Shown piece after piece: positions 6,128-61,386 of a stretch of 64,000 nt of DNA. The stretch lies in NCBI GenBank assembly GCA_013180625.2, contig SNVD02003435.1, positions 62,001 to 126,000 on the forward strand. The letters are read 5' to 3'. The translations under genes were made by a program, and so were the position numbers. Below the pieces are notes generated by a model. It was not told the DNA's origin. It did no database searches and saw only the letters and a program-made list of their open reading frames with translations. Each line of letters begins with the position of its first letter. The first letter of the stretch is position 1. Origin of the DNA: Boswellia sacra. Taxonomy: Eukaryota > Streptophyta > Magnoliopsida > Sapindales > Burseraceae.

Positions 6128-6470
6128 CTATTTTGATACCTCGTAAAGGTACTTCATCGGATCCTCCTTTAAGACAACATTAATTTTATAGGACTCAAAA
6201 TAATGCTTCAATTTCTTTGACACCCAAACCATGGCCAAGCATGTTTTCTCCACGTAGATATACTTTGTCTCATACGGTAGCAACTTCTGGCCAAGATAAT
6301 AGATGGCATGCTTTATACCCCTCTTGTCTTCTCGTGCTAGCATAAAACTGATGACTTCCTCCTTAAAAGCCAGGTAAAGAATTAAATTCTTCCCAGGTTT
6401 TGACGATCTCAAAACTGGGGGACTCTACAAGTATTTCTTAATCCTTTCAAATGCCTTTTGGCACTAATAA
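6128..6470 (-). pseudogene. Tat RNase H remnant
   Basis: An open stretch of 94 codons on the minus strand reads ILYLAFKEEVISFMLAREDK, then IYYLGQKLLPYETKY and KKLKHYFESYKINVV. This is the usual gypsy RNase H layout after RT. The first catalytic position is eroded. It would degrade RNA in the RNA/DNA hybrid during reverse transcription. Confidence 0.75.
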
Positions 6471-9072: not shown

Positions 9073-9077
9073 AGACT
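9073..9077. repeat. Target-site duplication AGACT (left)
   Basis: AGACT directly precedes the LTR end at 9078 and is repeated exactly at 20262-20266 after the other LTR. Five bases is the usual gypsy duplication length. Confidence 0.92.
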
Positions 9078-10439
9078 TGACACATCCGAAAAAGGATTAT
9101 CCCCCAAGTATAGGAGTGTCGAAGTAATAAAACTTGGTGAGACCGGGGTCGATCCACGAGGAAGGAGATTTTAGCGCTCATATTATAAGCTAAGCAAATA
9201 CGATATGATGATTCAAAGATATGACAAGATAATATCAACAATGGATGAGAATAATTAAAATGCGCAAGTAAAAGGAATTAACACAATAATAATAAAAGCT
9301 AAGGTTAGGGGATCCGCCCTTGATATTTCGAATAAGGATAATTAGCCCATTTTAGTTATATGAAATATATTTGTTTCATTACCAACATTTATACCACTTC
9401 TTGTAAATGGGTTCAAGCATCCAAGGTGCCAATCACCATATGTCTACAACAAATCAAGGTTCCTAACTAGATTCGTGTCGGTAAGGAAGAACCATACATC
9501 ATCTAGAAAGGATCCAAGCATTTGATGTGCCAAGGATTGTCGACAATAGATCAAGACCTCCACTTTACGAGTGGCGTCAAGATTGATTAAGAAATTAAAT
9601 ATAAATCATATTGAATAAACATTATAAGATTAAGATTATTAAGCACATATTAAGGGTTAGAGAATCCTTATTCTCATATCAAGGGTTTCACCCTTTCACC
9701 TTAGCAAAAGAGAAATTAGAAGAACATTATAATAGAAAGAAAATAAAATGCAAGAAAAAGAAATTCATTAATAACATAAACACACAAAACACAATACAAG
9801 ATCCTAGCCAAAGCCAAAATGTTCCAGCCAAGGCCAAGATGCTGTAATGGGTCACAAGGCACCTCTATTTATAGAGACATCCAGGGGCAAACTTATCAAA
9901 TTACAAGGGCATAATTGTCAAATATTAGTTGTAAATATCTTTGACAATTGGGATCATTAGGCACCGACTTTGACTATCAATTTTGACATCGAAATGTTGT
10001 GAATTTTAATCACATGTCATCATGAAAGTTGTAGATATTTCTCTCATCTTTCTAGAACATATTTATTTGCACAATTTGGATACGTATTTTGAGAGATACG
10101 GTCCAAATACTGAGGCCTGGTTAGACTAGGTCGAGACAGTAGATAGGTTCACTTCAAGCCCAATTTTGGTCCACTAAGAGCCCGAATTTGATGATACTTA
10201 AATACAATCTTGTAGATAATTGAATCAGCTTTCCAAAACATTAAGAGTTGCACCATTCTGATCTATAAATAGAGAGTTATGCCCATTTTACCAAACCTGT
10301 AACAAAACCAAAATTAAAAGGAAGTTAATTCCAAAGATGCAAAGCTACAAATATGCTTAAGTTGAGGAATTTAATGACACTATTAATGCAATATGATGAA
10401 CTAAACTCTTATTAAACATGCATATTTAAGTGTTCATCA
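9078..10439 (-). repeat. Athila 3' LTR
   Basis: This 1,362-bp LTR starts TGATGAACAC and ends GGATGTGTCA when read on the minus strand. It is nearly identical to 18895-20261 and similar to the solo LTR at 59859-61386. A TATA-like CTATAAATAG on the minus strand lies at 9865-9874. A second TATAAATA, on the plus strand, lies near 10262. Confidence 0.93.
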
Positions 10440-10449
10440 CACCCCCCAA
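10440..10449 (-). other. Athila polypurine tract
   Basis: On the minus strand the sequence reads TTGGGGGGTG immediately before the 3' LTR start TGATGAAC. This is the expected position and composition for plus-strand priming. Confidence 0.8.
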
Positions 10450-10746
10450 CTAGCTTATTGCTAGTCCCTAGCAATTAAAGTGTTATTATTTAGAAGTGAT
10501 TTATAGAATTTTACATCTAAGGTGGTCATTATTGCACTCTCCTTGATTTTATCCAAATAAACAAACTCTCAACCAATTATTATTATTATTATTTTTATTT
10601 TTATGACTTATGTACCCTTCGGTCAAGATATCTATAAACCTTCTTTTTGTGCTCAGTCAACACATGACTATGGGACTTATTAGAAAGAAGCCATATCGGT
10701 TCTAATATTTGTTAAGGCTAACAACCTTAGGTAAGGGGCATTTATT

Positions 10747-10748
<2 letters not shown>

Positions 10749-10792
<44 letters not shown>
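10749..10792. repeat. (AT)n microsatellite
   Basis: About 22 uninterrupted AT dinucleotides lie within the Athila 3' non-coding region. Confidence 0.95.
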
Positions 10793-10795
<3 letters not shown>

Positions 10796-10814
10796 CTTTT
10801 TTTGTTAAAGGAAT

Positions 10815-10926
10815 GCATCTTTAACCCATGTAGCGAGCTTTAGGCTAATGACTCCCAGACCAATTGGTCTTAGGGCATTAGGTGTTAAGACACCCCTTCG
10901 AGCTTAACGACTCGGGTTGCCGATGC
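10815..10926 (-). other. Conserved Athila stem-loop, copy 1
   Basis: The outer arms GCATC (10815-10819) and AACCC (10823-10827) pair with GGGTT (10914-10918) and GATGC (10922-10926), leaving a 3x3 internal loop. Inside are the palindrome AGACCAATTGGTCT and the small hairpin GGTGT-TAAG-ACACC. The interior matches copies 2-4, but the outer arms do not, although each copy's arms are self-complementary. Confidence 0.65.
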
Positions 10927-10980
10927 TTTATTTTTGCTTAGAAACTTGTGGATAGTGCAATGTTCAATCCCATTAAGCTT

Positions 10981-11089
10981 TCTCCTTAATCCATGTAGCG
11001 AGCTTTGGGCTAATAGCTCCCAAACTAGTTGGTCTTAGGGTATTAGGTGTTGAGGCACCCCTCGGGCTTAATTGCTTGAATTAAGGAGG
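10981..11089 (-). other. Conserved Athila stem-loop, copy 2
   Basis: The outer arms TCTCCTTAAT (10981-10990) and ATTAAGGAGG (11080-11089) pair over 10 bases with one wobble. The interior is close to copy 1: CATGTAGCGAGCTTTGGGCT, then TTGGTCTTAGGGTATTAGGT and a GGTG...CACC hairpin. The outer arm sequence differs from copy 1 and from copies 3 and 4. Confidence 0.65.
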
Positions 11090-11755
11090 CTACGAGACCA
11101 AACTTATCCACAATTGCTCTCTTCTTTTTTTTTCACTTTTTTTTCACTTTTCTTCTTTTTTTTTAAAAAAAACTTTCCCCTTCCTTTGTGTTGTTATCCT
11201 AAACAAAACAAAAGAACTCAATATTACAACATTTCATTTTGCCATCCACAATCATGCATCAAGGTATGTGTGTATGTGAAGAAAGGTTCATGAATACTTG
11301 CTTAATGAGTACATAAGCACACAATTTTAAATGATAAGGTTGTGAGAGTTCATAGATTTGAATAATTCAAAGTGAAATGAATAAGACCTCCTTGTTATAA
11401 AATTCAAAAATCAAGACTAAATAATATCAAGTTAGCTAAAATGAGTTCACAAGATCAAAATAAAATGACAAATTGGTTAGAATGGGTTTCAAGAGTTCAA
11501 ACTGGCCCTCCCTACTCTGCCATTCCTAACCTAGAATGCGTCTCAAGAGGATTTGAACTCCTTACACCGCACTCTGAATCTAATTCAAGACACACTTATG
11601 TCTACTATCCTTCCGCCCCAACCAAATGAAACATTGTCCTCAATGTTTAAATGTAGAGAGATAAAGTATAGGAGACATTACCTGAAGCTTCTGTTATTCA
11701 AGAGAGATGACCTGAAAGACGCATAAAATAAAATAAAATAAAGCACAAGAAATCA

Positions 11756-12406
11756 TTACAAACGGAGATTCAGATCCAATTTGCACTTTTTGTTTTGCCC
11801 TCCTGCCCAATTAATTTGAGTACTAACTGGATCAGGTTCATACTCAACTTCTTGTAATTTGTCAAGTAACTCACCAGCAGAAGTGGCAGAAATAAGGATT
11901 TGTCTCGCCCAATGTGGGATAAAATTTTGTTCTACAGCTGCATCAACAAAACTTATTAAAGGATTAAAGAAATTGTTAACATTCAACAAACCTATGGGTT
12001 TTTTATGGAGGTTCAGTTGGGCCCAAGAGGCAATTTGAAAAATTTTTTCAAAAGTACCAAAGCCACCTTGCAAAGCAATAAAGGCATCTGAATTGATGAG
12101 CATATGTGCTATGCGTTCATGCATAGAGGAGACTTGTAACTCATGGCCAACCGTTTTTCCAACAATTCTTTCTATAGCCAAAGCATTAGGAATAACTCCT
12201 AAAACTTGACTACCTCCTACACGTGCAACTTTTGACACACAACCCATTAACCCGAGGCTACCTCCCCTATAAACCACATGAATATTTCTTTCAGCTAGTA
12301 GTCTACCAAGAGAATTTGCTGCCTCGACAAACTCTTCACTTTTACCCGGTTGAGATCCACAAAATACACATATCTTTTGGATTCGACCTTTTGAAGTTCC
12401 CTCCAT
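11756..12406 (-). CDS. LOG-like cytokinin phosphoribohydrolase homologue carried by Athila
   Basis: This is an intact 216-codon intronless ORF, the length usual for LOG proteins. Family members release cytokinin base from its riboside 5'-monophosphate. Visible blocks: KICVFCGSQPGKSEEF near the N-terminus, then VYRGGSLGLMG, SSMHERIAHM with the conserved Met-His-x-Arg, LQGGFGTFEK at the P-G-G-x-G-T-x-x-E position, ASWAQLNLHKKPIGLLNV and HWARQI. Three conserved positions are changed: the first Gly of GGGS is Arg, Pro of PGG is Gln, and the catalytic Glu is Lys. Activity is therefore doubtful. The C-terminus ends LDLNLRL, an EAR-type LxLxL motif. The start AAACATGG is a good context. It lies in the same orientation as gag-pol, between the Cys-rich ORF and the 3' non-coding region. 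Known plant LOG genes have several introns, so capture through an mRNA is likely. Confidence 0.9.
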   Translation of the reverse strand: MEGTSKGRIQKICVFCGSQPGKSEEFVEAANSLGRLLAERNIHVVYRGGSLGLMGCVSKVARVGGSQVLGVIPNALAIERIVGKTVGHELQVSSMHERIAHMLINSDAFIALQGGFGTFEKIFQIASWAQLNLHKKPIGLLNVNNFFNPLISFVDAAVEQNFIPHWARQILISATSAGELLDKLQEVEYEPDPVSTQINWAGGQNKKCKLDLNLRL

Positions 12407-12621
12407 GTTTATGCAACTCTCTAACTATGTGTGAAGAAGAGAACAAGTGATGTGGTATTTATGGAGTGTAAAAAGGTATGCTAATGATGACATCCAAATA
12501 GGTAGCTCGGCTGCTTGTTGAAAAATTCAACAATTATGCATAGAAATTCAAAAAAGATAATGAAATAAGACACCATAAGTCAAATAAAAGATACAAATTC
12601 AAAAATGACAGCTATAAGGCA
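12407..12621 (-). promoter_or_regulatory. LOG-like ORF leader with TATA-like box
   Basis: On the minus strand CCATAAATA (12456-12464) is followed by a CT-rich leader (CTTGTTCTCTTCTTCACACA) and the ATG at 12406. This looks like a plant core promoter and 5' leader. Short A-rich repeats containing ATTCAAAAA occur upstream at about 12546-12640. Promoter activity is inferred from spacing and composition only. Confidence 0.35.
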
Positions 12622-12855
12622 TTAAAATTCAAAAATGATAGCACGCATGCATATGTACAGGTAGTTGTGACTGTGGCTCACATCTTCCTCTGGTTTTACG
12701 TCCAGAAACGGCTTAAACACCTTCTCTGAGTTGGGGATATGCTTCCCATCCAGTTTTCTTATAAACTGGCAAACAGGGTCGTTTTGAGTCAGATTCCCAA
12801 GACTATAGCGTTCCTGCTCATCTCGGAATTGTGTCCACAAATTAAAAATTTCATG
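12622..12855 (-). other. In-frame continuation after the amber codon of the Cys-rich ORF
   Basis: After the TAG at 12856-12858 the same reading frame stays open for about 77 more codons to a TAA. The peptide includes RYSLGNLTQND, a VCQFIRKLDGKHIP segment and an acidic PEEDV stretch. No family is recognised. Either the amber is a recent nonsense mutation or it allows occasional readthrough; a separate start is less likely because no ATG opens this part. Confidence 0.45.
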
Positions 12856-13272
12856 CTACACAAGTCCACAAGAATGCGTCTCAAGAGTCATTCGGATATC
12901 ATCCAAAGACTCCTTACTCAGTCCATTCTTGATGAACTGTAGTTTATCCTCTCGATTGTTAGACAAATATCCCAAGGAGTGGCAACGCTGGTTACAAGTC
13001 CATCTTGCACATCTGGGACAAACTTGTAACCTTTTCGCTCTTCGCTTTTTGGCATAAGAGCTTTTTCTCATACCTAGCATGTGAGATACAAGATTATCTG
13101 AAAATTCATAGGAAAATTGAACCTTGGCTTCAATTAGCCATCTTACTTCGACAGGCATACCCTTACACATCAACATCCTTAGTCTTTCTCCACGAGCTTT
13201 GTAAATTTTAAGCAAATCATTTAGAGGAAGAGAGGGAAAATGTTTGTGCAGATTTGAGAGAATGGTGTCCAT
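12856..13272 (-). CDS. Basic Cys-rich protein resembling flexivirus nucleic-acid-binding proteins
   Basis: This 138-codon ORF in the post-integrase slot has a leucine-rich N-terminal half (LHKHFPSLPLNDLLKIYKA, then MPVEVRWLIEA). A strongly basic stretch, SSYAKKRRAKRL, is followed at once by CPRCARW and TCNQRCH, and then by KLQFIKNG. The order Ser-x-Ala-Lys-basic, Cys-x2-Cys, Cys/His, Lys-Leu-x-Phe-Ile-x2-Gly is the pattern I associate with the small nucleic-acid-binding proteins of Betaflexiviridae (Carla_C4, Viral_NABP families), several of which suppress RNA silencing. The match is by pattern, not alignment. It lies about 180 bases downstream of the integrase end and about 450 bases upstream of the LOG-like ORF. 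The expected Athila env-like domain is absent. An unrelated zinc-binding protein is the alternative. Confidence 0.6.
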   Translation of the reverse strand: MDTILSNLHKHFPSLPLNDLLKIYKARGERLRMLMCKGMPVEVRWLIEAKVQFSYEFSDNLVSHMLGMRKSSYAKKRRAKRLQVCPRCARWTCNQRCHSLGYLSNNREDKLQFIKNGLSKESLDDIRMTLETHSCGLV

Positions 13273-13450
13273 GCAAAAAAAGAAAGGAAAATGAATGCAA
13301 GGTGAGCAACAGTTTTTAGGAAACTGAAAAACCGACTTTAAATGTCACGGAGTACCGTATCCGCCACTTGACTGGAAAAAATCAATCCTTAAAAAAGATC
13401 GATTAAAGCAATGGACTCTTCGTTTTGGTCAAAATTTTCAAAGAATGGTT

Positions 13451-14632
13451 TTAACCGTTGTCCATTAACTTTAAACACATTACCATTCTTTGGGTTCTCA
13501 ATTTCAACTGCTCCATGAGGGAAAACATTTTTAACAATGAAAGGCCCAGTCCAAGAGACCGAAGTTTACCAGGAAACAAATGCAATCTTGAATCATACAA
13601 AAGAACTTTTTGTGAAGGTTCAAAAGATTTTCTAACAATGGATTTGTCATGAAAAACCTTTATTTTTTCTTTGTAGATTTTAGAATTCTCATAAGCCTCA
13701 TTCCTGATTTCTTCAAGTTCACTCAGTTGGAATTTACGTAATTTGCAAGCATCATTCAAATTTGTGTTGAATGTTTTAATGGCCCAATAAGCTTTATGCT
13801 CAATTTCCACAGGCAAGTGACAAGGTTTTCCATAAACTAGTCTATAAGGAGACATCCTAATGATGTTTTAAAAGCAGTTCGGTAAGCCCAAAGTGCATCA
13901 TTAAGTCTTAAAGACCAATCTTTATGATTTGGGTTAACCGTTTTTTCTAAGATCTGTTTTATCTCCCTATTAGCTAATTCAACTTGTCCACTTGTTTGTG
14001 GGTGATAAGGTGTAGAAATTTTATGGGTTATTCCATATTTCTTCATTAAAGTTTCAAATGGTTTGTTACAAAAAATGTGTACCCCCATCACTAATAATGG
14101 CTCGAGGAATTCCAAATCTACTTAAGATATTCTCCTTCAAGAATTTGACAACTGTTTTGTGATCATTGTTTCGACATGGAATTACCTCGACCCATTTTGA
14201 AACATAGTCTACTGCAACAAGGATGTACACAAAACCAAATGACGGTGGAAAAGGTCCCATAAAATCAATACCCCAACAGTCAAAGATTTCAACGACAAGA
14301 ATGAGATTCAAAGGCATCATGTTTCTTTTTGAAATAGATCCTAATTTTTGACAATTTTCACACGTTTTACAAAATGCATGTGCATCTTTAAATAAGGTGG
14401 GCCAATAAAATCCACATTGTAAGATCTTAGCAGCTGTTTTTCTAGATGAAAAATGTCCTCCACATTCTTCAGAATGACAAAAGTTAATGACATTACTTAC
14501 CTCATTGTCGGGTATGCATCTTCTCATTATTTGGTCTGGACAATATTTGAACAGATATGTGTCATCCCAGTAAAAATTTTTCACCTCGGTTAAAAATTTT
14601 CTTTTGTCTTGAGCATTCCAATGAGGTGGCAT
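13451..14632 (-). pseudogene. Athila integrase
   Basis: The frame at 14066-14632 has the HHCC zinc finger (HSEECGGH ... CKTCENC), the first catalytic Asp in GIDFMGPF and the second in SDGGTHF. A frame change near 14090 leads to the third block, [17 protein letters not shown], which contains the catalytic Glu. Another change near 13850 leads to the C-terminal part ([20 protein letters not shown] ... [19 protein letters not shown]). A third, near 13560, scrambles the last part. All three catalytic residues survive but the frame does not. Confidence 0.9.
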
Positions 14633-14652
14633 TTTCCCTGTCGCAAGAAAAT

Positions 14653-15262
14653 TTACAATGTTAGCAAACCAAGGTACAATGGCAACGGAAAATAAAATTC
14701 ATCAGGAAAAGAATCATTGATAGGTGAAGTTTCAATTAATGTCTTTGTCGTTAGTCTTGAAAGATGATCAGTAACGACATTTTCGGCTCCTTTCTTATCC
14801 TTTATTGTGATGTTGAATTCTTGGAGCAATAAGATCCACCGTATCAATCTAGGTTTTGCATCCTGTTTAGACATTAAATATCTCACAGCTGCATGGTCAA
14901 TGTAAACAATTGTGGGAGAACCAATTAAATAAGAACGAAATTTGTCCAATGCAAATACTACTGCAAGTAGTTCTTTTCAGTTGTTGTGTAATTCATTTGT
15001 GCATCATTTAAAGTCCTACTTGCATAGTATATTACATAAGCCTTACCTTCTTTTCTTTGTCCTAAGACAGCACCAACGACATAATGACTTGCATCACACA
15101 TCAATTCAAAAGGCAAGGACCAATCAGGAGATTGCATAATTGGAGCAGTTGTTAAAAGTCCAATTAGTGTATCAAAGGCATTTTGACATTCTTGAGTGCA
15201 TTCAAAGGAAGTATCTTTTATTAAGAGGTTACAAAGAGGTTTAGATATAGCACTGAAATTTC
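14653..15262 (-). pseudogene. Athila RNase H
   Basis: The minus strand reads an MCDASHYVVGAVLGQ segment, a [19 protein letters not shown] segment, [20 protein letters not shown] and DHLSRL. One missing base near 14975 shifts the frame between the TTTEK and DKFRS blocks. It follows RT directly, as in all gypsy elements, and would remove the RNA template. Confidence 0.85.
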
Positions 15263-16444
15263 TTATGAACCTCCTATAAAATCCAGCATGCCATAAGAAT
15301 GAACGAACCTCTTTAACTGTTTTTGTGGAGGCAAATGGGAAATTAATTCCACTTTTGCTTTATCCACTTCAATTCCTTTAGAAGACACCACATGACCTAA
15401 AACAATTCCTGAAGTGACCATATAATGACATTTTTCCCAATTCAAAATAAGACCTTTTTCTACACACCTTTTTAGGACTTTTTCTAAATTTTCAAGACAA
15501 TTATCAAAAGAGTTTCCAAAGACAGTTAAATCATCCATGAAAACTTCTAAACAATGCTCAACCATGTCACTGAAAATGCTTAACATGCATCTTTGAAAAG
15601 TGACTGGGGCATTACAAAGTCCAAAAGGCATTCTCCTAAATGCAAAAGTGCCAAAGGGGCACGTGAATGTGGTCTTTTCTTGGTCTTCAAGTGCAATGGA
15701 AATTTGATAGTAGCCTGAGTATCCATCAAAAAAGCAGTAGTAGGGGTTTCCTGCTACTCTTTCAAGAATTTGGTCAAGGAAGGGTAAGGAAAAATGGTCT
15801 TTTCTAGTGACAGCATTTAATTTTCTATAATCAATGCACATCCTCCAACTAGATGAGACATGAGTTGGCAATAATTCACCCTTTTCATTTTTAACTACTG
15901 TAATGCCAGATTTCTTAGGTACTACTTGTGTAGGGCTTACCCACTTACTATCAGAAATAGGATAGATAATTCCCACATCAAGTAGTTTGAGAACTTCAGC
16001 CCTAATGACCTCTTTCATGTGTGGATTTAATCTCCTTTGAGGTTGTTGAGATGTTTTGGCATTTTCCTCTAAATGTATTCTATGTGTGCAAATTAAAGGG
16101 TTAATGCCTTTTATATCTTTTAAAGTCCACCCAATTGCATTTTTATGCCTTTTAAGCACTTCTATCAACTTACCTTGTTGCTCGCATGTGAGGGATGAAG
16201 AAATTACCACCGGATATGTCTGATTCTCCCCAAGATATGCATATTTCAGTCCTTCAGGTAAGGGCTTCAATTCTAGCTTGGGAGCTTCATCTTCCTTGCT
16301 TTCATTCATTTGCCCCAATTCTTCAAATCTTGATTTTGAGCCTTTTTCCATCACCTGTGCACAATCCAATAAAAAGCATATATCAGAAAGATCAGACTCT
16401 AGTTCCATGCTTGATTCTAATGAATTCACTAGAGAAGTTTCCAA
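15263..16444 (-). pseudogene. Athila reverse transcriptase
   Basis: A long open frame (393 codons) covers the whole RT: WVSPTQVVPKKSG, SWRMCIDYRKLNAVTRKDHF, FFDGYSGYYQI, FAFRRMPFGLCNAP, and the catalytic VFMDDLTVFG followed by LGHVVSSKGIEVD. Both catalytic Asp of the FMDD box are present. The frame breaks at the RNase H junction (about 15263) and just after the protease (about 16440), so the polyprotein is not continuous. Confidence 0.92.
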
Positions 16445-17865
16445 GGGTCAGAATAACTCCCTTTTCGGATGTGATCTTCCACAATAGATTCAATTACATT
16501 GGCTTCATCAACTTCATCTTCTTCTTCATTTGGCTGTTTGCACATATTAAAAGCATTAAGTTCTAATGTCATGTTCCCAAACGATAGCTTCATGACTCCA
16601 TTCCTGCAATTAATCAAAGCATTAGAAGTAGCTAGAAATGGACGCCCTAAAATAACAGGAATTGAATTGCTTACTTCCACTGGTTGTGTGTCCAAGACGA
16701 TAAAATCCACTGGGTAAATGAATTTATCAACTTGAACTAATACATCTTCTACTACTCCTCTTGGTACTTTAATTGATCTATCAGCAAGCAAAAGAGTCAC
16801 AGAAGTCGGTTTTAACTCACCTAGATTGAGTTCTTGAAAAACCGAGTATGGAAGCAAATTCACACTAGCACCAAGATCAAGTAAAGTTTGTTCAATTTTA
16901 TGGTCTCCAATAACACATGAAATTGTAGGACAACCTGGATCCTTATATTTCACTGTATTATTGTTTTGAAGAATGGCACTTACTTGCTCAGCTAGGAAGG
17001 CCTTCTTTTTCACATTCAATTTTCTTTTCATAGTGCACAAGTCTTTCAAAAATTTTGCATAAGAAGGTACCTGTTTGATCACATCAAGCAAGGGAATGTT
17101 GACCTTTACCTGTTTGAAAATTTCAAAGATTTCAGAATTATGAGTTGCCTTCTTTTGTGTGGCTAATGCTTGAGGAAATGGAGGCACAGATGGGGATATG
17201 GTTTCCTCTTCGCTAGGTATTGGTTTGGCCACCTCTTCCTGTCCTTTAGAGATCGATTCTTCTTCTTTCTCACAAGGGTCAGGAATGTGTTTTTCAACAA
17301 TCTTACCATTGCGAAGGGTCATGACTGACTTGGCTTGGTCAAAATAATGGTTACTTGAACTCCCTGCATTTGAGTTAGATTGATCTTTGGGGTTTTGCAA
17401 TGTTTGAGAAGGAAATTTTCCCTTCTCTTTGATGCTAAATGCAGATGCAAATTTTGCAAGAGTTTCTGGCAAATTTGCTAATGTTTGAGCAGTTTGACTA
17501 TTGAAAGTCTCTTGCTTTGTAATGAATGAATGCAATGTTTCTTCAAAGTCATTCCTAAGAGGAGGAGCATATGCATGATCATGAGAATTTTGAAAATTTT
17601 GTCGTGTTTGAAAAGGGACTTGTGAAGATTGTGCATGATTGTCATTTTTCCAGCTAAAATTTGGATGATTTCTCCAACCAGGATTGTAGACTTGTGAATA
17701 TGGATTGTGATTTGGCCTTTTGAAAGTGTTTAAGGCATTGGCTTCTTCATGGAGACATTCCTTAAAGGTAGGCAAAGTTGGGCAATTATCAGTAGAATGG
17801 TCATTGTCATCACAAATGTTACAGACATTTTCTTGAATAGAATTCAATTGACCACTCTTTTTCAT
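16429..17865 (-). pseudogene. Athila Gag C-terminus and protease
   Basis: This is an open frame of 478 codons. Near its start a CCHC knuckle reads CNICDDNDHSTDNC. A Pro/Glu-rich linker follows, then SVMTLRNGKIVEK, a typical Athila segment. The aspartic protease core is LLDLGASVNLLPYSVF with the downstream ILGRPFLAT. It is separated by a stop at about 18000 from upstream gag and by a frame shift from RT. Confidence 0.9.
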
Positions 17866-18691
17866 TTCTAAAGCCTCAACTTTTCTGGCTAGGGATGCAA
17901 ATTTGGCTTGAAGGTCATGGTCTTCCCTAAGGTTGTAAATGCCTCTATTGAATGTCGAGGTTAGGGCCTTGCCTGGTACCTCATAGGTGCCAGTAGTGTC
18001 CTAATTTTGTGCCTTTTCTGCCAAGGAATCTAGGAAGTCAAGTGCTTCCTCAGGGTCTTTTTCTTTAAATTCTCCTTTACACATTAATTCTACTAGTTGC
18101 CTATCTTGAGGTGTTAACCCTTCATAGAAGTGTGCAACTATTCTCCAAGTTTCAAACCCATGGTGAGGATAGGTATTAAGCAGTTCCTTATATCTATCCC
18201 AACATTGGTAAAGGGTTTCTCCTTGTTTTTGAGAGAAATCAGAAATTTGTCTTTCAAGAGAATTTGTTCTATGGGTAGGAAAAATTTTTTTTCAAAAATT
18301 GTTGTTTCATCTCATCCCATGAACTGATGGAATTCGACCTCAAATTTTGTAGCCATGTTCTAGCTTTATCTTTTAAAGAAAAAGGAAAAAGCTTTAATCT
18401 AATGGTGTTTATGCTACAATTTGGGTCAGTGTAGGAGCTACATACCTCTTTAAAGAGTTTCAAGTACGAATATGGGTTCTCCATGTCAAGGCCATGAAAA
18501 GTGGGTAGAAGTCGAACAAAACTTGGTTTGAAATTGAAAAGGATTGAATCTGGAGGAGAAACTACACAAGATGGTGCACTAGTCCTTACCGGATTCATAT
18601 AGTCTCTAAGGGTTCTTCGTTGGTTTTGATCATTTTGTTGCGAACGGTTGTCCCCTTCATCCGTAAATATTTCCTCATGATTGTCGGCCAT
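17866..18691 (-). pseudogene. Athila Gag N-terminus
   Basis: The likely start is the ATG at 18691, giving MADNHEEIFTDEG; it lies 180 bases from the PBS. The capsid-like block reads FVRLLPTFHGLDMENPYSYL and continues with LKLFPFSLKDKARTWL (retrotransposon gag family, PF03732). A frame change at a T-rich run near 18285 and an in-frame stop near 18000 interrupt it. Gag would form the virus-like particle. Confidence 0.88.
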
Positions 18692-18870
18692 GTTTTCTAA
18701 GAAAGATGATGTTTTTCTAACAAGTCTACCACTAGATGTTCGTGACCAAATTTTCATGCAAGAAAGAGAGAAGAAAAGAGAGGAAAAGATGAACAAACAA
18801 AAAAACTAAAAAATTTAGATCTAAGATGAGAAAAGAGAATACTTACAATTTTGCACGCCAATTTTTACCT

Positions 18871-18888
18871 TCCCCGGCAACAGCATCA
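18871..18888 (-). other. Athila primer-binding site (tRNA-Asp type, decayed)
   Basis: Read on the minus strand, TGATGCTGTTGCCGGGGA begins six bases inside the 5' LTR. It matches the usual Athila tRNA-Asp PBS except at three places, each a transition in the CpG/GC-rich 5' part, as expected from methylated-cytosine decay. Confidence 0.8.
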
Positions 18889-18894
18889 AAAACT

Positions 18895-20261
18895 TGACAC
18901 ATCCGAAAAAGGATTATCTCCTAAGTATAGGAGTGTCGAAGTAATAAAACCCGGTGAGACCGGGGTCGATCCACGAGGAAGGAGATTTTAGCGCTCAAAT
19001 TATAAGCTAAGCAAATACGATATGATGATTCGAAGATATGACAAGATAATATCAACAATGAATGAGAATAATTAAAATGCGCAAGTAAAAGGAATTAACA
19101 TAATAATAATAAAAGCTAAGGTTAGGGGATCCGCCCTTGATATTTCGAATAAGGATAATTAGCCCATTTTAGTTATATGAATTATATTTGTTTCATTATC
19201 AACATTTATACCACTTCTTGTAAATGGGTTCAAGCATCCAATGTGCCAATCATCATATATCTATAACAAATCAAGGTTCCTAACTAGATCCGTGTCGGTA
19301 AGGAAGAATCATACATCATCTAGAAAGGATCCAAGCATTTGATGTGCCAAGGATTGTCGACAATGGATCAAGACCTCCACTTTACGAGTGGTGTCAAGAT
19401 TGATTAAGAAATTAAATATAAATCATATTGAATAAACATTATAAGATTAAGATTATTAAGCACATATTAAGGGTTAGAGAATCCTTATTTTCATATCAAG
19501 GGTTTCACCCTTTCACCTTAGCAAAAGAGAAATTAGAAGAACATTATAATAGAAAAAAAATAAAATGCAAGAAAAAGGAAATTCATTAATAACATAAACA
19601 CACAAAACACAATACAAGATCCTAGCCAAAGCCAAAATATTCCAGCCAAGGCCAAGATGCCCTAATGGGTCACAAGGCACCTCTATTTATAGATACATCC
19701 AGGGGCAAACTTGTCAAATTACAAGGGCATAATTGTCAAATATTAGTTGTAAATATCTTTGACAATTGGGATCATTAGGCACCGATTTTGACCATCAATT
19801 TTGACATTGAAATCTTGAGAATTTTAATCACATGTCTTCATGAAAGTTGTAGATATTTCTCTCAGATTTCTTGAACATATTTATTTGCACAATTTGGATA
19901 CGTACTTTGAGAGATACGGTCCAAAAACTGAGGCCTAGTCAGACTGGGCCGAGACTGTAGATGGGTTCACTTCAAGCCCAATTTTGGTCCACTAATAGCC
20001 CGAATTTGATGATGCGTGTGAAATGCAATCTTGTAGATAATTGAATCGGCTTTCTAAAACATTAAGAATTGTACCATTCTGATCTATAAATAGAGAGTTA
20101 TTCCCATTTTACCAAACCTGTAGCAAAACCAAAATTAAGAGGAAGTTAATTCTAAAGATGCAAAGACTACAAATATGCTTAAGTTGAGGAATTTAATGAC
20201 ACTATTAATGCAATATGATGAGCTAAGCTATTATTAAACATACATATTTAAGTGTTCATCA
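18895..20261 (-). repeat. Athila 5' LTR
   Basis: This is the 1,367-bp partner of 9078-10439. A minus-strand TATA-like box lies at 19683-19692, so transcription would run leftward through the element. It ends at the TSD copy 20262-20266. Confidence 0.93.
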
Positions 20262-20266
20262 AGACT
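20262..20266. repeat. Target-site duplication AGACT (right)
   Basis: Exact copy of 9073-9077, directly after the LTR end ...GTTCATCA. Confidence 0.92.
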
Positions 20267-39442: not shown

Positions 39443-41930
39443 CGTAATGCTCATTAATTTTTTTTAACTTAAGCCTAGCCCACTATGTTAGCAAACCAGC
39501 CCAATGTTTTAGCCCAGCCCTTAAGCCATTTTTTTTTCATTTTTTTCATGCAATTATATAAAGAAATAATTAAGAATTATTAGAAACAAAAATCTAGCAG
39601 GGAAGGCAGAGGGGGAGACGTGAGAGAAGAAGGAGAAGGGCAAGAGAAGGCTTGATTTTCAAGAAGAATTTGTAGAAATTGAGGTAAATTATTCATTTCC
39701 TAGCTTAATTAGATTGTATAATTTTAATTCTATCTCTAAATCAATATTGGGAGGAGGTTATTTGATATTTATAGATGTAATAGAGAGAGAGACTAGCGAG
39801 AGAAATGAGATTTCCATGCTTATTTAGGCTTCAATTTCTTGTATTTTAAAGGAATTGAAGTTTTGATGATAATTATGAAAAAATAGGTTTCTATGAACAG
39901 TATAGATTTCGAAAATTATAACAGTCTGTTGGATTTGAATCTGATTTTGAAATTATTATATCTCAAAATAGACGTCCTAAGGATTTGTTTAAAATTGGAT
40001 TCACAGAAAAATGTGGAGTATGCAATTTATTACGAATTTTCGAAGTTTACTATTTACCCCTGGAAATTTAGTTTTTCCGCAGAAAATCAGTTTTGGGCAA
40101 GTTAATTGAGTTATCTAGAAGTCTTCAAAAAATTATGAAATTTGGGATATGAGTTTGTATATATGTTTAGTTTAAAACTGGAGATTTTTGTGAATTTACG
40201 AATTTAGTACAAATTATCATGTATTTTGGAATAGGGAGAAGTCAGTTCTGGAAATGAATTTATAGAATTTGTGTATCTGGAAAAAATGAAGGATTTGAGG
40301 TATCTAATGAGCATATAATGCTATGAAATTTTATATGGTATTATAAATGTATGTGTAGAAGATGTTTATAAAATATTAGACCATCTAGATGAGTCAATTA
40401 ATTATTAAAAATCGGAGAACCAGAATTGATCTGTTTACGAAGTGTGGAAATGGAGTTAATTAGGAGAATTAGTATGTTATTGGTGAGACTGGGGTTTTGT
40501 GCTATTAAAGAATTTTATTTGGCTTTTCTCTTAGGTGAGACTGCGGTTCCTAATATATACCGGGATTCGATCACGGAAGGGGTTGCCACACAAGTTGATC
40601 CACGAGATTGTGAGTGAGAAAAATATTATTTTTACCAACAATTGAACAATAAATTATAAATTTCTATTTTTTTATAATTGTTAGCAAAACTTTATTATGT
40701 TAGTAAATAAATATTCCATTATTCTAGTATGAAGCATATTTTATAGTTTATCAAATTTTGTCTATGCAGTTATCGGAAATGATTGTTTAATGTTTTAGAG
40801 ATTTAAAACTAAATAATTGAATTTTTATGTTTTACTAAGATAGTACCCAATTCATTCAGATAGTAAAATTATAGAGGTCTTTGAGACCCATTCAGGCACA
40901 CATAGAGGCTTTGAGTCGTGTGATCTGGATGTTTAGCCCTTTGGGGACAGCTCTGCACATGCGTAGGATCAGTATAGTGATATCTTGGCCTGAGCGATCC
41001 TAGCCCCGCCAGGTCATGATCAGCAGATTAGTTTGGGTACTTGATTAGTGAAACTGTAATGACTTAGAAATTTAAATTATGAAATGAGTTTTATGAGATT
41101 TAGAAACTTAATATTTTTATCATGTTGAATGTTGAATGCAAGTAGAAATGCTTTAGAAGATTTTTATATTCAAATTTAGATTTTTTTGAAAGGCATAGAT
41201 ATTATTGAAAGAATTGCTTCCTCATTTTTGTATCTTTTCTAAGTAGTTTTCTTATTAATGTTAGTAAAGCATAATTTTTAATTAATTTATTATTATGATA
41301 TAGTATTTTATTTTATGCAAATTTTTATCTATTTTAATGACTCTATCCCACTCACTGAGGTTATACTCACCCTATTTTCTTTTCTTTAAAAAACCCCTTT
41401 TTCCCCAGGAGATTGTAGTGTTTAGTCGGAACGCCAGTAGCTGCTTGAGGTTGACCATTTGATGATGTTTTGAGAGCTTTCTTTTTGATATTTTATTGTA
41501 TTATTGTAGATGGTTTTCTTGCATATGTAAATATTTTGATATCGTATATGTATCAAAGATTTGTTTTAGTTTCTTTTAGACATTTTTGTTTATTCATCAT
41601 GCTTCAGTTTTTAAACTTATATAAAAATTTTAATTGTAAACTTTTTGAATCATAATTAATCACATTAGGCCGGAAGTCATATTTTATTTTAAAGACTATT
41701 TTGAAGATACAATTATTTTAACAGAGGACTTAAGGTCCCGAAAAGGAAGTTAGTGGTTATATAAATATTTTGGAAGTATTGAATTTTGTGTACTTGGCAA
41801 GGAGGTTAGTCCAAAATGCAGGGGAGACTCTACCAAAATTTTCGTAAATTTGCATATTTTAAGAAGTTAAATTTTGTTAGTACAGTTTTAGGCACGATTC
41901 GCCTGTGTTAGCTAGGGGCAGGTCGTGTCA
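39443..41930 (+). repeat. Element 2 5' LTR
   Basis: This 2,488-bp LTR ends GGTCGTGTCA; its first base is C where the 3' copy has T. Short frames in it (for example at 39893 and 40426) recur in the 3' LTR and have no known domain. Confidence 0.92.
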
Positions 41931-41933
41931 AAT

Positions 41934-41945
41934 TGGTATCGGAGC
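41934..41945 (+). other. Element 2 primer-binding site
   Basis: TGGTATCGGAGC, three bases after the LTR, is the initiator-Met tRNA type with one transition (A to G). Confidence 0.85.
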
Positions 41946-42036
41946 ATGGTTTTTTAAAATTTTGTTACCTCTCTCATGTTTGCATATACATGGTTTTGTA
42001 ATGATAAAAGAAGCGTTATATTTTGTATGCATCATC

Positions 42037-43310
42037 ATGAGCCAACATACAGGCAGACCTCGCACTAGAGGTAGGGGCGGACTGAACCAAACTGCAAATT
42101 CTTCACCACCACCACCACTTGAAGGTGAAGGGGAAAATGAACATAGTCGTGGAGAGGAAAGACAGTCAAATGCGAGAGGAAATGAGAATAGGAACCACCG
42201 TGACCCTCCTATCATTATACACTCAGTAGATGCACTAGCCCAGCTTGTTGCTACTGTTACTCAAAATCAAAGGCATGTTAGGGAAGAGAACACTATTGAG
42301 CGGGTTAGGATGTTAGGTGGTCAAAGCTTTGATGGTAATGTTGATCCTCCTAGTGTAGAGGCTTGGTTAAGCAAGCTAGAGCGTATCTTTGGAGTTATGG
42401 GGTGTATTGATGAGCAGAAGTTGCTTTTTGCTACATTTTTATTGGAGGATGGAACATACCACTGGTGGGAGTCAGTTCAACGTCATCATCCATCACAAGA
42501 AGTTATTACTTGGGCTTTGTTCAAAAAGGAGTTCTTTGACCACTACTTTCCTGCTATGTACAAAGATATCAAGCGTAGTGAGTTCTTGAGACTAGTTCAA
42601 GGGTCCAGATCAGTGGAGGAGTATGAGAAGAAATTTTTAGAGCTCTCCAGATTTGCTCCTTCTATTGTGGCTAATGAGGAGGAAAGGTGTAAAAAGTTTG
42701 AAGAAGGATTACGTAGAGAAATCAGAGTTGTACTTGCTGCCAACAATTATGGTGACTTTGGTAAGTTAGTCCAAGCTGTTATGAAAGTTGAGAGAAATTT
42801 GGGGGATGCTAACCGAGCTGATTCAAGTCATAAACGTCAGCAGAGTTGGCCAGTTGATAGTAGTAGCTACCGACCAAATAAGAGAGGGGGCAGTTATTCA
42901 GCTTATTATGATAGTTATAAGAGTACTCAGAGACAGGGTCCACCAGAGAGGCAAAAACAAAGTTCTAGCAGCGAGCTATGCAACAATCTATGGGAAGTAA
43001 TTCTAGAGATCAGCAGATTAGTAGAAAGGGGAGCAGACAACATGATGATCAATCCAGAATGACTCCATTCCCATTATGTGAGACTTATGGCAAGCTTCAT
43101 GAGGGAGAGTGTCGGTTTGGTAGACCTGGTTGTTATCATTGTGGTCAGAAAGGACATATCAAGAAATTTTGTCCTACTTTAACTCAAGATAGCAGTTTTA
43201 TTCAGAAAGATAGAGGACCAGGAAGGCTTCAAATCAGGACATCTACTTCTTCAGCTAGAAACCAGACGAATACCTCAAGAAATAGTAATAATCAACAAGG
43301 TAGTTAGCCA
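42037..43310 (+). pseudogene. Element 2 Gag
   Basis: The likely start is ATG at 42037 (MSQHTGRPRTRGRGG); the frame is also open from 41905. The capsid block contains SFDGNVDPPSVEAWLSKLER and FFDHYFPAMYKDIKRSEFL. The zinc knuckle, after a frame change near 43000, is CYHCGQKGHIKKFC. Stops at 43306 and 43318 precede the protease. Confidence 0.9.
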
Positions 43311-43334
43311 GTTCGATAGGCACGAGTTTTTGCC

Positions 43335-43676
43335 ATGACTCAGCAGCAGGCACAGGCTACGCCAGAGGTAGTTACTGGTACGTTGACTATCTTTGGTCGT
43401 GAGGCCCATATTTTGATTGATCCTGGATCCACCCATTCCTTTGTTTCATGTATGTTTGCTATGTATGCTGATAGAGATTTGAAACCATTGAAATGTAATT
43501 TAGCAGTAGCCACACCTATTGGGGATTCCATCTTGGTAGGAAATGTTCTTAAGGATTGCGTTGTGAAGGTAGGGAATCATGATCTATTAGCAAACTTAAT
43601 TCTTTTAGATATCCAAGACTTCGATGTGATATTGGGAATGGATTGGCTTACAACTCACCATGCATATGTAGATTGA
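43335..43676 (+). pseudogene. Element 2 protease
   Basis: The active-site block reads LTIFGREAHILIDPGSTHSF, and VILGMDWLTTHHAYVD ends the domain. The D-x-G-S/T triad is present (DPGST). A TGA at 43674-43676, where Cys is usual, separates it from RT. Confidence 0.88.
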
Positions 43677-43688
43677 TTCAAGAAGGAG

Positions 43689-44807
43689 GTGATGTTTAGA
43701 AAACTTGAAACACCTGAATTTATTTTCTATGGAGATCGACGAATCCTCTCTACTTGCATAATATCTGCCCTTGAAGCTAAACGATTATTTAAAAAGGGAT
43801 GTTCAGCCTACCTAGCTCATGTGATTGACACTTCAATGGGTGAAGCAAAGATAGAAGATATTCCTATTGTACAAGATTTCCCAGATGTGTTCCCAGAAGA
43901 TTTACCCGGCTTACCACCAGATAGGGAGGTTGAATTCATAATCGACCTAGCTCCAGGCACAACCCCTATTTTCATGGCACCATACAGAATGGCTCCAGCA
44001 GAGTTAAAAGAGTTAAAAGTTCAATTACAAGAGCTAGTTGATAAGGGTTTTATTAGACCTAGTGTTTCACCATGGGGAGCACCGGTCTTGTTTGTTAAAA
44101 AGAAGGATGGAACGATGCAGTTATGCATAGACTATCGACAGTTGAACAAGGTGACAATCCGCAACAAGTATCCTCTTCCTCGTATTGATGATTTGTTTGA
44201 TCAGTTGCAAGGTGCAAGGGTTTTCTCCAAGATAGATTTGCGCTCAGGTTACCATCAACTCAATATTAGAGAGGCCGATGTACCTAAGACTACTTTCAGA
44301 ACTCGTTATGGGCACTATGAATTTCTTGTAATGCCATTTGGGTTGACTAATGCTCCAGCAGCTTTTATGGACCTCATGAATCGAGTATTTTATCCTTATT
44401 TGGATCGCTTTGTTATCGTGTTTATTGATGACATATTAGTGTATTCGCGAGACAAGGAGGAGCATACAGAGCATTTGAAAATAGTTTTGCAGACCTTGAA
44501 GGAGAAACAACTTTATGCCAAATTCAGCAAATGCCAGTTTTGGCTGGACAAAGTTATGTTTTTAGGACATGTGATATCAGCTGAAGGGGTGTATGTAGAT
44601 CCTCAGAAGATAGAAGCTATTATTAAATGGGAGAGACCCACTAATGTAACAGAAGTCAGAAGTTTTCTTGGCTTGGTAGGTTATTATAGGAGATTTATTG
44701 AGAATTTTTTCAGAATTTTTGTTCCATTAACACGGTTGACTCGTAAGGAGGTGAAGTTTGAGTGGACTGATGCTTGTGAGCAGTGTTTTCAAGAGCTCAA
44801 AACATGA
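43689..44807 (+). pseudogene. Element 2 reverse transcriptase
   Basis: A 372-codon frame holds all RT blocks: [48 protein letters not shown] and [12 protein letters not shown] with both catalytic Asp, then [16 protein letters not shown] at 44805-44807 (CGA expected) separates it from RNase H. Apart from the flanking stops it looks intact. Confidence 0.93.
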
Positions 44808-45290
44808 TTAACTTCTGCACCCATACTTACTCTTCCATCCGGTAACGAGGGGTTCGTGATTTATAGTGATGCCTCTAGACAGGGGTTAGGTTGTGTTTTG
44901 ATGCAATACGGGAAGGTGATAGCTTATACTTCAAGACAACTAAAGAAGCATGAACAAAATTATCCTACCCATGACTTAGAATTGGCAACAATTGTATTTG
45001 CACTCAAGACTTGGCGACATTACTTGTATGGGGCAACATGTCAAATTTATACAGATCACAAGAGCCTCAAGTATTTATTCACTCAAAAAGAATTGAATCT
45101 TAGGCAGAAAAGATGGATTGAGCGTATCAAGGATTATGACTACACAATTGACTATCACCCAGGTAAAGCAAATATAGTAGCAGATGCACTCAGCCAGAAG
45201 TCCTCGAGCTTTATAGCCTATTTGAAGGTGACATATCTACCTTTATTGATTGAATTGAGGTCTTTGGGAATTGAGCTAACAATAAATGAC
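44808..45290 (+). pseudogene. Element 2 RNase H
   Basis: It reads [20 protein letters not shown], then [20 protein letters not shown] and the [17 protein letters not shown] block, with all catalytic acids present. The frame from 44856 runs on into the integrase. Confidence 0.92.
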
Positions 45291-46586
45291 TCAAATGTGC
45301 TACTAGCCAATTTCCATGTTAGACCTACTTTAATTAATAAAGTTAGAGATGCACAAGTACAAGATCCTCAGTTAATGAAACTGATAGAAGAAGTGAAGAA
45401 AGGTTTACGATCAGACTTTGTGGTTAGAGATGATGGAGCATTAGTTATGGTAAATAGACTTTGTGTGCCCAACATTGAAGAATTAAAGAAAGAGATTATG
45501 GAAGAAGCTCACTTTCCAGCCTATGTAATGCATCCAGGAAGTACTAAGATGTATCGTAATCTGAGAGAACATTATTGGTGGCAAGGTATGAAGCGAGAAA
45601 TTGCAGAATTTGTGTCTCGGTGTTTAGTTTGCCAACAAATCAAAGCTGAGCACCAGAAACCTGCGGGACTCTCTCAACCACTTCCTATTCCTGAATGGAA
45701 ATGGGAACACATTACCATGGATTTTGTGGTAGGACTTCCACGTACTATGGCTAGTCATGATGGTATTTGGGTAGTGGTAGATCGTCTTACAGAATCTGCA
45801 CACTTTTTACCTGTCAAGGCTACTTATTCATTGAATAGGCTAGCTAGTATTTATGTAGCAAAGATAGTCTGTCTTCATGGTGCACCTGTTTCAATAATAT
45901 CAGATAGAGATCCACGTTTCACTTCCAGATTTTGGCCTAGCTTGCAAAAAGCTTTAGGCACAAAATTGAATTTCAGCACAGCTTTCCACCCACAAACAGA
46001 TGGTCAATCTGAGCGTACCATTCAAACTCTTAAAGACATGCTTCGATCTTGTGTATTAGAGTTTAAAGGCAATTGGGATGTTTATTTGCCTTTAATGGAA
46101 TTTGCTTATAATAATAGTTACCAATCCAGTATTGAAATGGCACCTAATGAGGCTCTATATGGGAGGAAATATAGAACACCAATATGTTGGGATGAAGTGG
46201 GTGAGAGGAGACTATTGGGACCAGAACTGGTACAGGATACAAATGAAAAGATAGTTATTATTAGAAACAAGATGAAGGCAGCACAAGATCGACAGAAGAG
46301 TTATGCTGATAAGCGCAAAAGAGATCTAGAGTTTCAAGTAGGAGATAAAGTATTTTTGAAGATATCTCCTTGGAAAGGTGTGCTTCGTTTTGGTAAACGG
46401 GGGAAACTAAGTCCACGTTACATTAGGCCTTACGAAATTATAGAGCGTGTGGGCACAGTTGCTTACCGTTTAGCTTTGCCTCCAGAATTGTCGAAAATAC
46501 ATAATGTGTTTCATGTCTCTATGCTCCACAAGTACGTGTATGATCCAAGCCATATCCTTCAACAGCCGCCAATTCAATTAAAATAA
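45291..46586 (+). pseudogene. Element 2 integrase
   Basis: It is continuous with RNase H. The HHCC finger is at about 45510-45640 ([15 protein letters not shown] ... [11 protein letters not shown]). The catalytic residues are in [24 protein letters not shown] and [13 protein letters not shown]. The C-terminal GPY-like block is near 46400. The frame ends at a TAA (46584-46586) just before the chromodomain. Confidence 0.92.
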
Positions 46587-46767: not shown

Positions 46768-46780
46768 TTCGAGGACGAAA

Positions 46781-46801
46781 ATTTTTTTAGGGGGATAGTA
46801 T
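46781..46801 (+). other. Element 2 polypurine tract
   Basis: TTTTTTTAGGGGGATAGTAT precedes the 3' LTR start TGTAAAGCCC. Confidence 0.78.
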
Positions 46802-49288: not shown

Positions 49289-49293
49289 AGAAA

Positions 49294-59858: not shown

Positions 59859-61386
59859 TGATGAACCCTTAAATATGTATGTTTAATAAGAGCTTAGTTC
59901 ATCATATTGCATTAATAGTATCATTAAATTCCTCAACTTAAGCATATTTGTAGTCTTTGTATCTTTGGAATTAATTTCTCTTAATTTTGGTTTTGTTACA
60001 GGTTCGGTAAAATGGGCATAACTCTCTATTTATAGATCAGAATGGTGCAATTCTTAATGTTTTGGAAAGTTGATTCAATTGTCTACAAGATTGCATTTCA
60101 CAAGCATCATCAAATTCGGGCTCTTAGTGGACCAAAATTGGGCTTGAAGTGAACCCATCTACAGTCTCGGCCCAGTCTGACCAGGCCTCAGTATTTGGAC
60201 CGTATCTCTCAAAATACGTATCCAAATTGTGCAAATCAATATGTTCTAGAAAGCTGAGAGAAATATCTACAACTTTCATGAAGACATGTGATTAAAATTC
60301 ACAACATTTCGATGTCAAAATTGATGGTCAAAGTCGGTGCCTAATGATCCCAATTGTCAAAGATATTTACAACTAATATTTGACAATTATGCCCTTGTAA
60401 TTTGACAAGTTTGCCCCTGGATGTATCTATAAATAGAGGTGCCTTGTGACCCATTAGAGCATCTTGGCCTTGGCTGAAACATTTTGGCTTTGGCTAGGAT
60501 CTTGTATTGTGTTTTGTGTGTTTATGTTATTAATGAATTTCCTTTTTCTTGCATTTTATTTTCTTTCTATTATAATGTTCTTCTAATTTCTCTTTTGCTA
60601 AGGTGAAAGGGTGAAACCCTTGATATGAGAATAAGGATTCTCTAACCCTTAATATGTGCTTAATAATCTTAATCTTATAATGTTTATTCAATATGATTTA
60701 TATTTAATTTCTTAATCAATCTTGACACCACTCGTAAAGTGGAGGTCTTGATCCATTGTCGACAATCCTTGGCACATCAAATGCTTGGATCCTTTCTAGA
60801 TGATGTATGGTTCTTCCTTACCGACACGAATCTAGTTAGGAACCTTGATTTGTTGTAGACATATGATGATTGACACATTGGATGCTTGAACCCATTTACA
60901 AGAAGTGGTATAAATATTGGTAATGAAACAAATATAATTCATATAACTAAAATGGGTTAATTATCCTTATTTGAAATATCAAGGGCGGATCCCCTAACCT
61001 TAGCCTTCATTGTTATTGTGTTAATTCCTCTTGTATTTTAATTATTCTATTATTTATGAACTTTTTATTTATTTACTATGGTAGGTTCTACCACCTTATG
61101 AAATTGTTCTTTAATTTACTATGGTTGGTTATACCACCTATTTCCATGGATGGTTTTACCTCCTCTTGCTTTTTGTTTTATATTTGAATGGTCGGAAATA
61201 CCGCCTACCATCTTACATATTTATTGATATTCTCTTGTTATTTCTTGGAATCATCCATATCATATTTGTTTAGCTTATAATTTGTAACGCTTAAATTTCC
61301 TTCCTCGTGGATCGACCCCGGTCTCACCGGGTTTTATTACTTTGACACTCCTATACTTGGGAGACAATCCTTTTTCGGATGTGTCA
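59859..61386 (+). repeat. Solo LTR of the LOG-carrying Athila family
   Basis: It starts TGATGAACCC, ends GGATGTGTCA and is flanked by AAAAC (59854-59858 and 61387-61391). It is close to the LTRs at 9078-10439 and 18895-20261 but lies in the opposite orientation. It is longer because of about 175 extra bases at 61049-61225. A TATA-like CTATAAATAG lies at 60427-60436. Confidence 0.93.
61049..61225. repeat. Hairpin-rich insert within the solo LTR
   Basis: Four imperfect palindromes follow each other: GGTAGGTTCTACCACC (61080), GGTTGGTTATACCACC (61122), GGATGGTTTTACCTCC (61147) and GGTCGGAAATACCGCC (61190). The other two LTR copies lack this block. Confidence 0.75.

Follow-up and report, generated by a model that had tools for sequence, protein, structure and literature searches.

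Introduction

Why should a plant LTR retrotransposon carry a homologue of LONELY GUY (LOG), a family associated with cytokinin activation, and does such a gene serve the element? The question is raised by a 64,000-nt stretch of the Boswellia sacra genome (hereafter the window, in which all coordinates are given). An initial annotation of the window described an intact LOG reading frame inside an Athila-type element, regarded such cargo as undescribed, and proposed a genome search for further copies, a tree with host LOG genes, and dN/dS among element copies; it named a separate, later retrocopy, missing from other copies, as the outcome that would overturn its claim. With regard to novelty the annotation has to be corrected, as a YgdH domain, known elsewhere from the LONELY GUY family, is already in print for gypsy elements: it occurs in LTR-retrotransposon consensuses of Citrus sinensis and C. 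clementina, and in those of P. trichocarpa when unfiltered, and its presence is said to agree with Steinbauerova et al. 2011 (PMC9289625). Among the papers listed in our literature search there was no account of the tail, selection, or function of a retrotransposon LOG. New relative to the annotation are a C-terminal tail that combines a basic cluster with an LxLxL motif and a carlavirus-like gene upstream of LOG. We give slightly better than even credence to the reading that LOG is a resident gene in an Athila-like lineage, and that its product would be a nuclear LOG protein recruiting or sequestering TOPLESS-type corepressors via this tail.

Results

The window contains a complete Athila-like Ty3/gypsy element of 11,184 bp on the minus strand (9078..20261), delimited by its LTRs and a target site duplication and recognised by gag, protease (PR), reverse transcriptase (RT), RNase H (RH), and integrase (INT) frames. 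The 5' LTR (1367 bp; 18895..20261, minus) and the 3' LTR (1362 bp; 9078..10439, minus) both have the form TG...CA, and AGTCT is found outside the 5' end (20262..20266) and the 3' end (9073..9077). The two LTRs differ by 58 substitutions and 3 indel events over 1362 sites (K2P 0.044); if rates between 2.5e-9 and 1.3e-8 are assumed, this corresponds to an age between 1.7 and 8.8 My. Directly inside the 5' LTR lies a PBS-like stretch (18871..18888, minus) that we take to resemble the tRNA-Asp type site of Athila, and a polypurine-tract-like TTGGGGGGTG, identified by eye, adjoins the 3' LTR (10440..10449, minus).

All internal domains remain recognisable on the minus strand, although gag-pol is broken across several ORFs, as initially annotated. 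They comprise a gag fragment (18269..18796; Retrotrans_gag, 2e-9), the aspartic protease (16429..17865; Asp_protease_2, 4.8e-5), the reverse transcriptase (15263..16444; RVT_1, 9.6e-30), RNase H (14653..14949; RT_RNaseH, 5.7e-11), and an integrase region in three ORF pieces (13451..14632), the first of which (14066-14632) matches Integrase_H2C2 and rve. The gypsy order PR-RT-RH-INT, followed by extra ORFs and a long non-coding region, is an Athila-type layout, and we call the element Athila-like, a placement made from this layout and from the PBS-like stretch. RT_RNaseH was the only RNase H type among the window ORFs scanned, where broken frames could conceal others; archaeal RNase H is a mark of Tat (PMC6317226). 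Athila ORF-1, which is present in 16% of Athila elements (PMC6317226), had no match among the 14 window ORFs scanned.

Other retroelement remains share the window. A solo LTR of the same family lies on the opposite strand (59859..61386, plus) with an internal interruption of ~170 bp, and AAAAC can be seen by eye at both of its flanks. Close to it, ORFs at 54961-59094 resemble copia-type gag/pol pieces, and a further retroelement at ~39530-49290 is marked by long repeats at a distance of 7.36 kb and by gypsy-like pol ORFs that reach 372 and 576 aa (both by eye). An RNase H fragment at 6128-6412 (minus) belongs to a different retroelement.

The LOG-like ORF (216 aa; 11756..12406, minus) is located where the initial annotation placed it, within the LTR and duplication boundaries, between the integrase and the 3' non-coding region, and in the orientation of the element. 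Its family assignment holds in profile searches: TIGR00730 is matched with an E value of 2.7e-44 and 151 bits, above the cut-off of 96.35, and Pfam Lysine_decarbox with 2.3e-33, while the best solved relative is Arabidopsis At2g37210 (2a33; E 3.7e-59). The match to the NCBI LOG equivalog NF058542 (cytokinin riboside 5'-monophosphate phosphoribohydrolase) reaches 96.8 bits, below its cut-off of 300. The word 'intact' is appropriate for the reading frame, which is open, but not for the enzyme, in which three conserved motif positions are changed. R47 (12266-12268, minus) replaces the G of most relatives in the GGG motif, and Q113 (12068-12070, minus) and K121 (12044..12046, minus) replace P and E in the PGGxGTxEE motif, such that the copy fails both active-site motifs, GGGxxGLMG and PGGxGTxEE. 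Among the 47 family copies read in the B. sacra genome, 33 have G/P/E at these positions and only the window copy has R/Q/K. Because these residues depart from the states usual in relatives, the window copy is probably an inactive enzyme, that is, a decaying family member with an open frame and a dead active site.

One could suppose that a host LOG transcript was inserted once, by chance, into this single element and has no role there; the ORF is intronless, and the three host LOG genes that we sampled (L073-L075) are intron-split. The distribution of LOG in the genome (638.6 Mb, 7431 contigs) decides the matter. A search with the window LOG protein returned 14,428 first-look candidates and at least 150 scored matches, window included, all of which cover at least residues 2-213; those other than the window are 87-92% identical, and by hand count 113 among 150 scored matches have no in-frame stop. 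Twenty copies picked by LOG (~10 kb each) all showed the same order of LTR, 3' non-coding DNA, LOG, and the adjacent CRP gene (described below), the last being complete or partial. An integrase match was absent in L011, L014, L020, L021, and L024, and only a piece was present in L025. Four of these copies (L011, L014, L020, and L024) have no RT or INT match, yet CRP (in part in L024) and LOG are kept at 94-96%; they are LOG-bearing non-autonomous derivatives.

Since these 20 copies had been picked by LOG, two further samples were drawn without regard to it. From 40 copies scored by 3' non-coding DNA we took 37, omitting the window, one copy already sampled, and one at a contig end; LOG was present in 25, over its full span in 23, and 11 of those were indel-free. 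Among 20 places hand-chosen from the upper part of at least 150 CRP matches, 18 carried LOG. The 12 copies without LOG in the 3'-non-coding sample form one subfamily (L032, L035, L038, L039, L042, L044, L045, L052, L053, L059, L061, and L062), with 84.6-98% similarity across the 761 bp seen; its members have lost INT, LOG, and all but the 3' end of CRP. This LOG-less subfamily has amplified.

A second LOG-bearing family was reached by searching the genome with a 44-residue host LOG exon (at least 150 scored matches), whose results began with a few host-like exons, matched over short lengths at high identity, and continued with more than 100 matches elsewhere at 41-52% identity. All seven loci sampled from the latter (L066-L072) encode a LOG 63-66% identical to that of the window, with LxLxL in all seven tails (e.g., LDLTLHL). 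CRP lies upstream of LOG in six of the seven, L067 having none, and the spacer between CRP and LOG is longer than in the first family. In 30 between-family comparisons, dN was 0.246 and dS 1.20 (dN/dS 0.2), with dS near saturation (60% of silent sites different) and L071 left out. By contrast with these loci, the host LOG gene L075 showed no LxLxL tail in the last exon read. We also considered an internal promoter for LOG, as CATAAATA occurs at -57 of the window LOG and is kept in 19 aligned copies; the idea was dropped because the second family showed no CATAAATA.

LOG thus stands at the same place in most copies that were picked irrespective of it, and downstream of CRP in a second family. 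The large family that the initial annotation considered as a possibility is borne out, the separate later retrocopy is not, and a one-off host insertion, already refuted by the copy counts, retains next to no credibility.

We then compared variants confined to one copy (private), which approximate decay after insertion for the most part, with shared variants, which approximate changes transmitted by replication. For the 23 rows of the 3'-non-coding sample, shared variants in LOG gave a ratio of nonsynonymous plus stop to synonymous changes of 48:42 (omega 0.45, P 1.4e-4) and private variants 104:43 (omega 0.95; Fisher private versus shared, 0.008). In the CRP-picked sample (17 rows) the shared ratio was 43:47 (omega 0.36, P 1e-6) and the private ratio 111:36 (omega 1.2; Fisher, 2e-5), and the pooled 40 rows gave 162:58 private (1.06) and 87:65 shared (0.51, P 4e-5). 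All of these P values treat variants as independent. Rows left out were L043 (chimeric-looking) and L048 (partial), reducing 25 to 23, and L083 (contig end), reducing 18 to 17; L008 was left out of the 'all' set. Indel-rich rows, among them L077, L087, and L093, stayed in the samples, and private nonsynonymous counts may be too high as a result. Six pseudo-frames in 20 copies, three each from the 3' non-coding DNA and the LTR, gave 0.90-1.30 in both classes, whereas RT, the positive control (15 copies), gave 0.17 for shared and 0.56 for private variants; the latter value means that private variants are not everywhere free of selection. CRP (18 copies, L021, L024, and L025 being left out) followed the same pattern as LOG more weakly, with 88:30 private (1.1) and 37:25 shared (0.56, P 0.019). 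No contrast was seen in the LOG-picked sample of 22 (private 0.58, shared 0.64), which we put down to choice by protein similarity; because such choice biases the ratio, this sample is not our main evidence on selection.

These data support the conclusion that LOG is under selection during element replication, and that inserted copies then decay in a roughly neutral manner. A LOG that had been a passive passenger, functionless ever since its capture, would account for the private values near 1 and for the lack of contrast in the LOG-picked sample. It would not account for the low shared values in both samples drawn without regard to LOG, set against non-coding controls near 1, or for the between-family ratio, and we consider it very improbable.

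For comparison across species, 'TE-type' LOGs were defined as the best 120 listed of 1150 protein database matches, and host LOGs as the best 120 listed of 7997, covering LOG1/3 and LOG8 types and leaving out LOG5/7/10 types. In a tree of 53 rows, 34 TE-type LOGs and the window LOG fall on one side and 18 host LOG1/3 and LOG8 proteins on the other (100/100), with P0085 and P0096 flagged as long branches. Transposon origin is demonstrated for the two families of the B. sacra genome only; for the database proteins we infer it from copy numbers, with cluster sizes reaching 327, and from LOG and CRP matches on contigs of equal size (8723 for P0005 and P0122; 2128 for P0018 and P0229).

The TE-type proteins are further marked by their C-terminus. 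The window LOG ends in KKCKLDLNLRL (11759..11791, minus), a basic cluster, putatively a nuclear-localisation signal, followed by an EAR-like LxLxL that is intact in this copy (LDLNLRL). LxLxL is present in the tails of 41 of the 47 family copies read in the B. sacra genome, and within the last 15 residues of 98/120 listed TE-type LOGs as against 0/120 listed host LOGs; even the last 40 residues of the listed host LOGs contain none (0/120). The basic cluster precedes it in 83/120 listed TE-type proteins, which is suggestive of a nuclear location. Leucine occupies columns 210, 212, 214, and 216 in 94, 101, 102, and 101 of the 120, respectively, while the residues between the leucines vary (S/T/N; R/S/H), and one protein (P0037) ends in DLNLTP, the other EAR type. 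We reject a chance origin of the tail on the grounds that leucines are kept while spacers vary and that the listed host LOGs have none; as LxLxL is short, shared descent could account for its conservation. In 22 of the 120 the motif is lacking, in some by truncation. P0104 and P0113, which branch off first within the TE clade, have the basic cluster and no LxLxL, and the EAR-like part may therefore have arisen inside the clade. SUPERMAN, with its DLELRL, and SRDX are familiar examples of the EAR type. The motif takes the form LxLxL or DLNxxP (PMC6479872) and docks TOPLESS (PMC10942257).

Does selection instead preserve LOG purely as a cytokinin-activating enzyme, whose product would keep cells dividing and the element replicating, with no corepressor role for the tail? 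Most motif residues are indeed kept in the listed TE-type proteins (R98 in 115/120, E120 in 117/120, E121 in 116/120, P113 in 111/120, and G47 in 113/120). A structure model of the database relative P0005 (mean pLDDT 89) has the LOG fold, its best solved match being 2a33 (TM 0.96 by target 2a33_B), and the solved folds nearest to it are LOG proteins, some of them solved with AMP; its tail is disordered (pLDDT 52-57). However, K99, the lysine after the conserved arginine, is present in 120/120 host LOGs and in 8/120 TE-type LOGs, the host-invariant H96 is kept in 49/120, and D94, which is D in 111/120 host LOGs, is T, S, or C in 111/120 TE-type LOGs. The purely enzymatic reading also leaves unexplained a conserved tail that the listed host LOGs do not have, and we regard it as a minority prospect, though a serious one. 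The same changes around the pocket, with the Rossmann fold kept, would suit a LOG fold turned to a different task in replication or packaging, either nucleotide-related or structural, such as binding or cleaving nucleoside monophosphates, with no hormone or corepressor function. Against this, the conserved arginine and glutamates are retained, and the LOG-less derivatives have amplified without LOG, possibly helped in trans; we judge it unlikely.

Between INT and LOG lies CRP (12856..13272, minus), an ORF of 138 aa for a carlavirus-like zinc-finger nucleic-acid-binding protein. The window CRP matches Carla_C4 (8.6e-7, 29.3 bits) above the gathering score of 20.9, and Viral_NABP with 18.8 bits, below the cut-off of 23. 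The TAG that ends it at 138 aa is found in three of 19 aligned copies, window included, and many relatives extend to ~182 aa. We found 204 relatives; the 48 that were aligned (mean column identity 68%) contain four cysteines and the basic stretch KKRRAKR; at E<=0.01, 46 of them match Carla_C4 and 47 match Viral_NABP. Their cysteines are spaced C-x2-C-x4-C-x3-C and do not match the carlavirus zinc finger, C-x2-C-x12-C-x4-C; because of this difference we call CRP carlavirus-like and not a member. The CRP structure model was poor (pLDDT 61.5). Scans of viral contigs for LOG and for CRP yielded no relative, and the open-access papers listed in our literature search gave no account of gypsy elements with a carlavirus-like protein. 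A block of 182 nt at the 3' end of CRP (12625..12806, minus) shows 95-99% similarity, for the greater part of its extent, in 33 copies, including the 12 LOG-less ones that have lost most of CRP. The block is a candidate cis-acting RNA element, such as a packaging, export, or splicing signal; RNA folding gave no decisive structure for it.

Discussion

The reading that we favour, a LOG kept by the lineage for its tail as well as its fold, can be put together as follows. Presumably the lineage acquired LOG at an early date from the mRNA of a host LOG gene, because host LOG genes are intron-split and the LOG of the element is intronless. It would occupy the place of the Athila env-like ORFs, downstream of CRP, and might be translated from a separate RNA, either spliced or subgenomic. 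In most copies its product would retain the LOG fold and the catalytic motif residues, and possibly a residual or altered LOG activity. The disordered tail, a basic cluster and then LDLxLxL, may serve as a nuclear-localisation signal and an EAR motif docking TOPLESS/TPR proteins, whereby the element would redirect or sequester host transcriptional repression in the dividing cells in which it replicates. A local rise in active cytokinin, and CRP as a nucleic-acid-binding protein, may act alongside the tail.

A more specific version is that the two proteins form a nuclear toolkit of a widespread lineage of plant retrotransposons, in which a LOG enzyme with an SRDX-like tail (nuclear-localisation signal plus EAR) and a zinc-finger protein of flexivirus-like type would couple local cytokinin activation to a hijack of TOPLESS, using the docking motif of secreted pathogen effectors. 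We hold this version tentatively, at somewhat less than an even chance. Carlavirus CRPs are nucleic-acid-binding proteins and weak silencing suppressors, and in one carlavirus the nuclear signal of CRP has been associated with cell proliferation and with the upregulation of a transcription factor of the host (PMC8839810).

If the tail binds TOPLESS, the element would encode the first retrotransposon protein to act on a host corepressor hub, in the manner of fungal, oomycete, and bacterial effectors. To our knowledge, no retrotransposon protein is known to act there. Moreover, the reason for extra ORFs in plant gypsy elements would become testable by means of a short peptide. Surveys of cytokinin gene families may also count transposon LOGs as host LOGs, a warning that we give because three TE-type proteins of Populus (P0039, P0059, and P0073) bear the NCBI name LOGL10, like host genes.

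The element can be set beside several known systems. With the Athila lineage it shares the gypsy domain order and the extra ORFs and long non-coding DNA between INT and the 3' LTR; its extra ORFs are CRP and LOG, with no ORF-1 match (PMC6317226). Its CRP resembles carlavirus CRPs in the basic stretch followed by four cysteines and in a Carla_C4 match above the cut-off, and differs in its length of ~182 aa, its cysteine spacing, and its encoding by a retrotransposon (PMC8839810). The YgdH domain of Citrus and Populus gypsy elements is likewise a LOG-family domain carried as an extra domain; the accessible text of that report gives its presence only, and here are added its position, family-wide selection, the basic and LxLxL tail, CRP, decay at the level of copies, and a second family (PMC9289625). 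The same source describes an AlkB-type RNA demethylase in Phalaenopsis gypsy elements, in which a host-type enzyme domain is also fixed as an extra ORF; the enzyme is a different one and is active in vitro, whereas the LOG is known from sequence. Finally, effectors with EAR motifs have been described from pathogens (PMC7446885, PMC8126959, and PMC5539180). The TOPLESS-binding effectors HaRxL21 (PMC7446885) and Jsi1 (PMC8126959) are, like the LOG of this lineage, parasite-encoded proteins with an EAR-type motif, but here the parasite is a genomic one and the putative docking motif is joined to a LOG fold.
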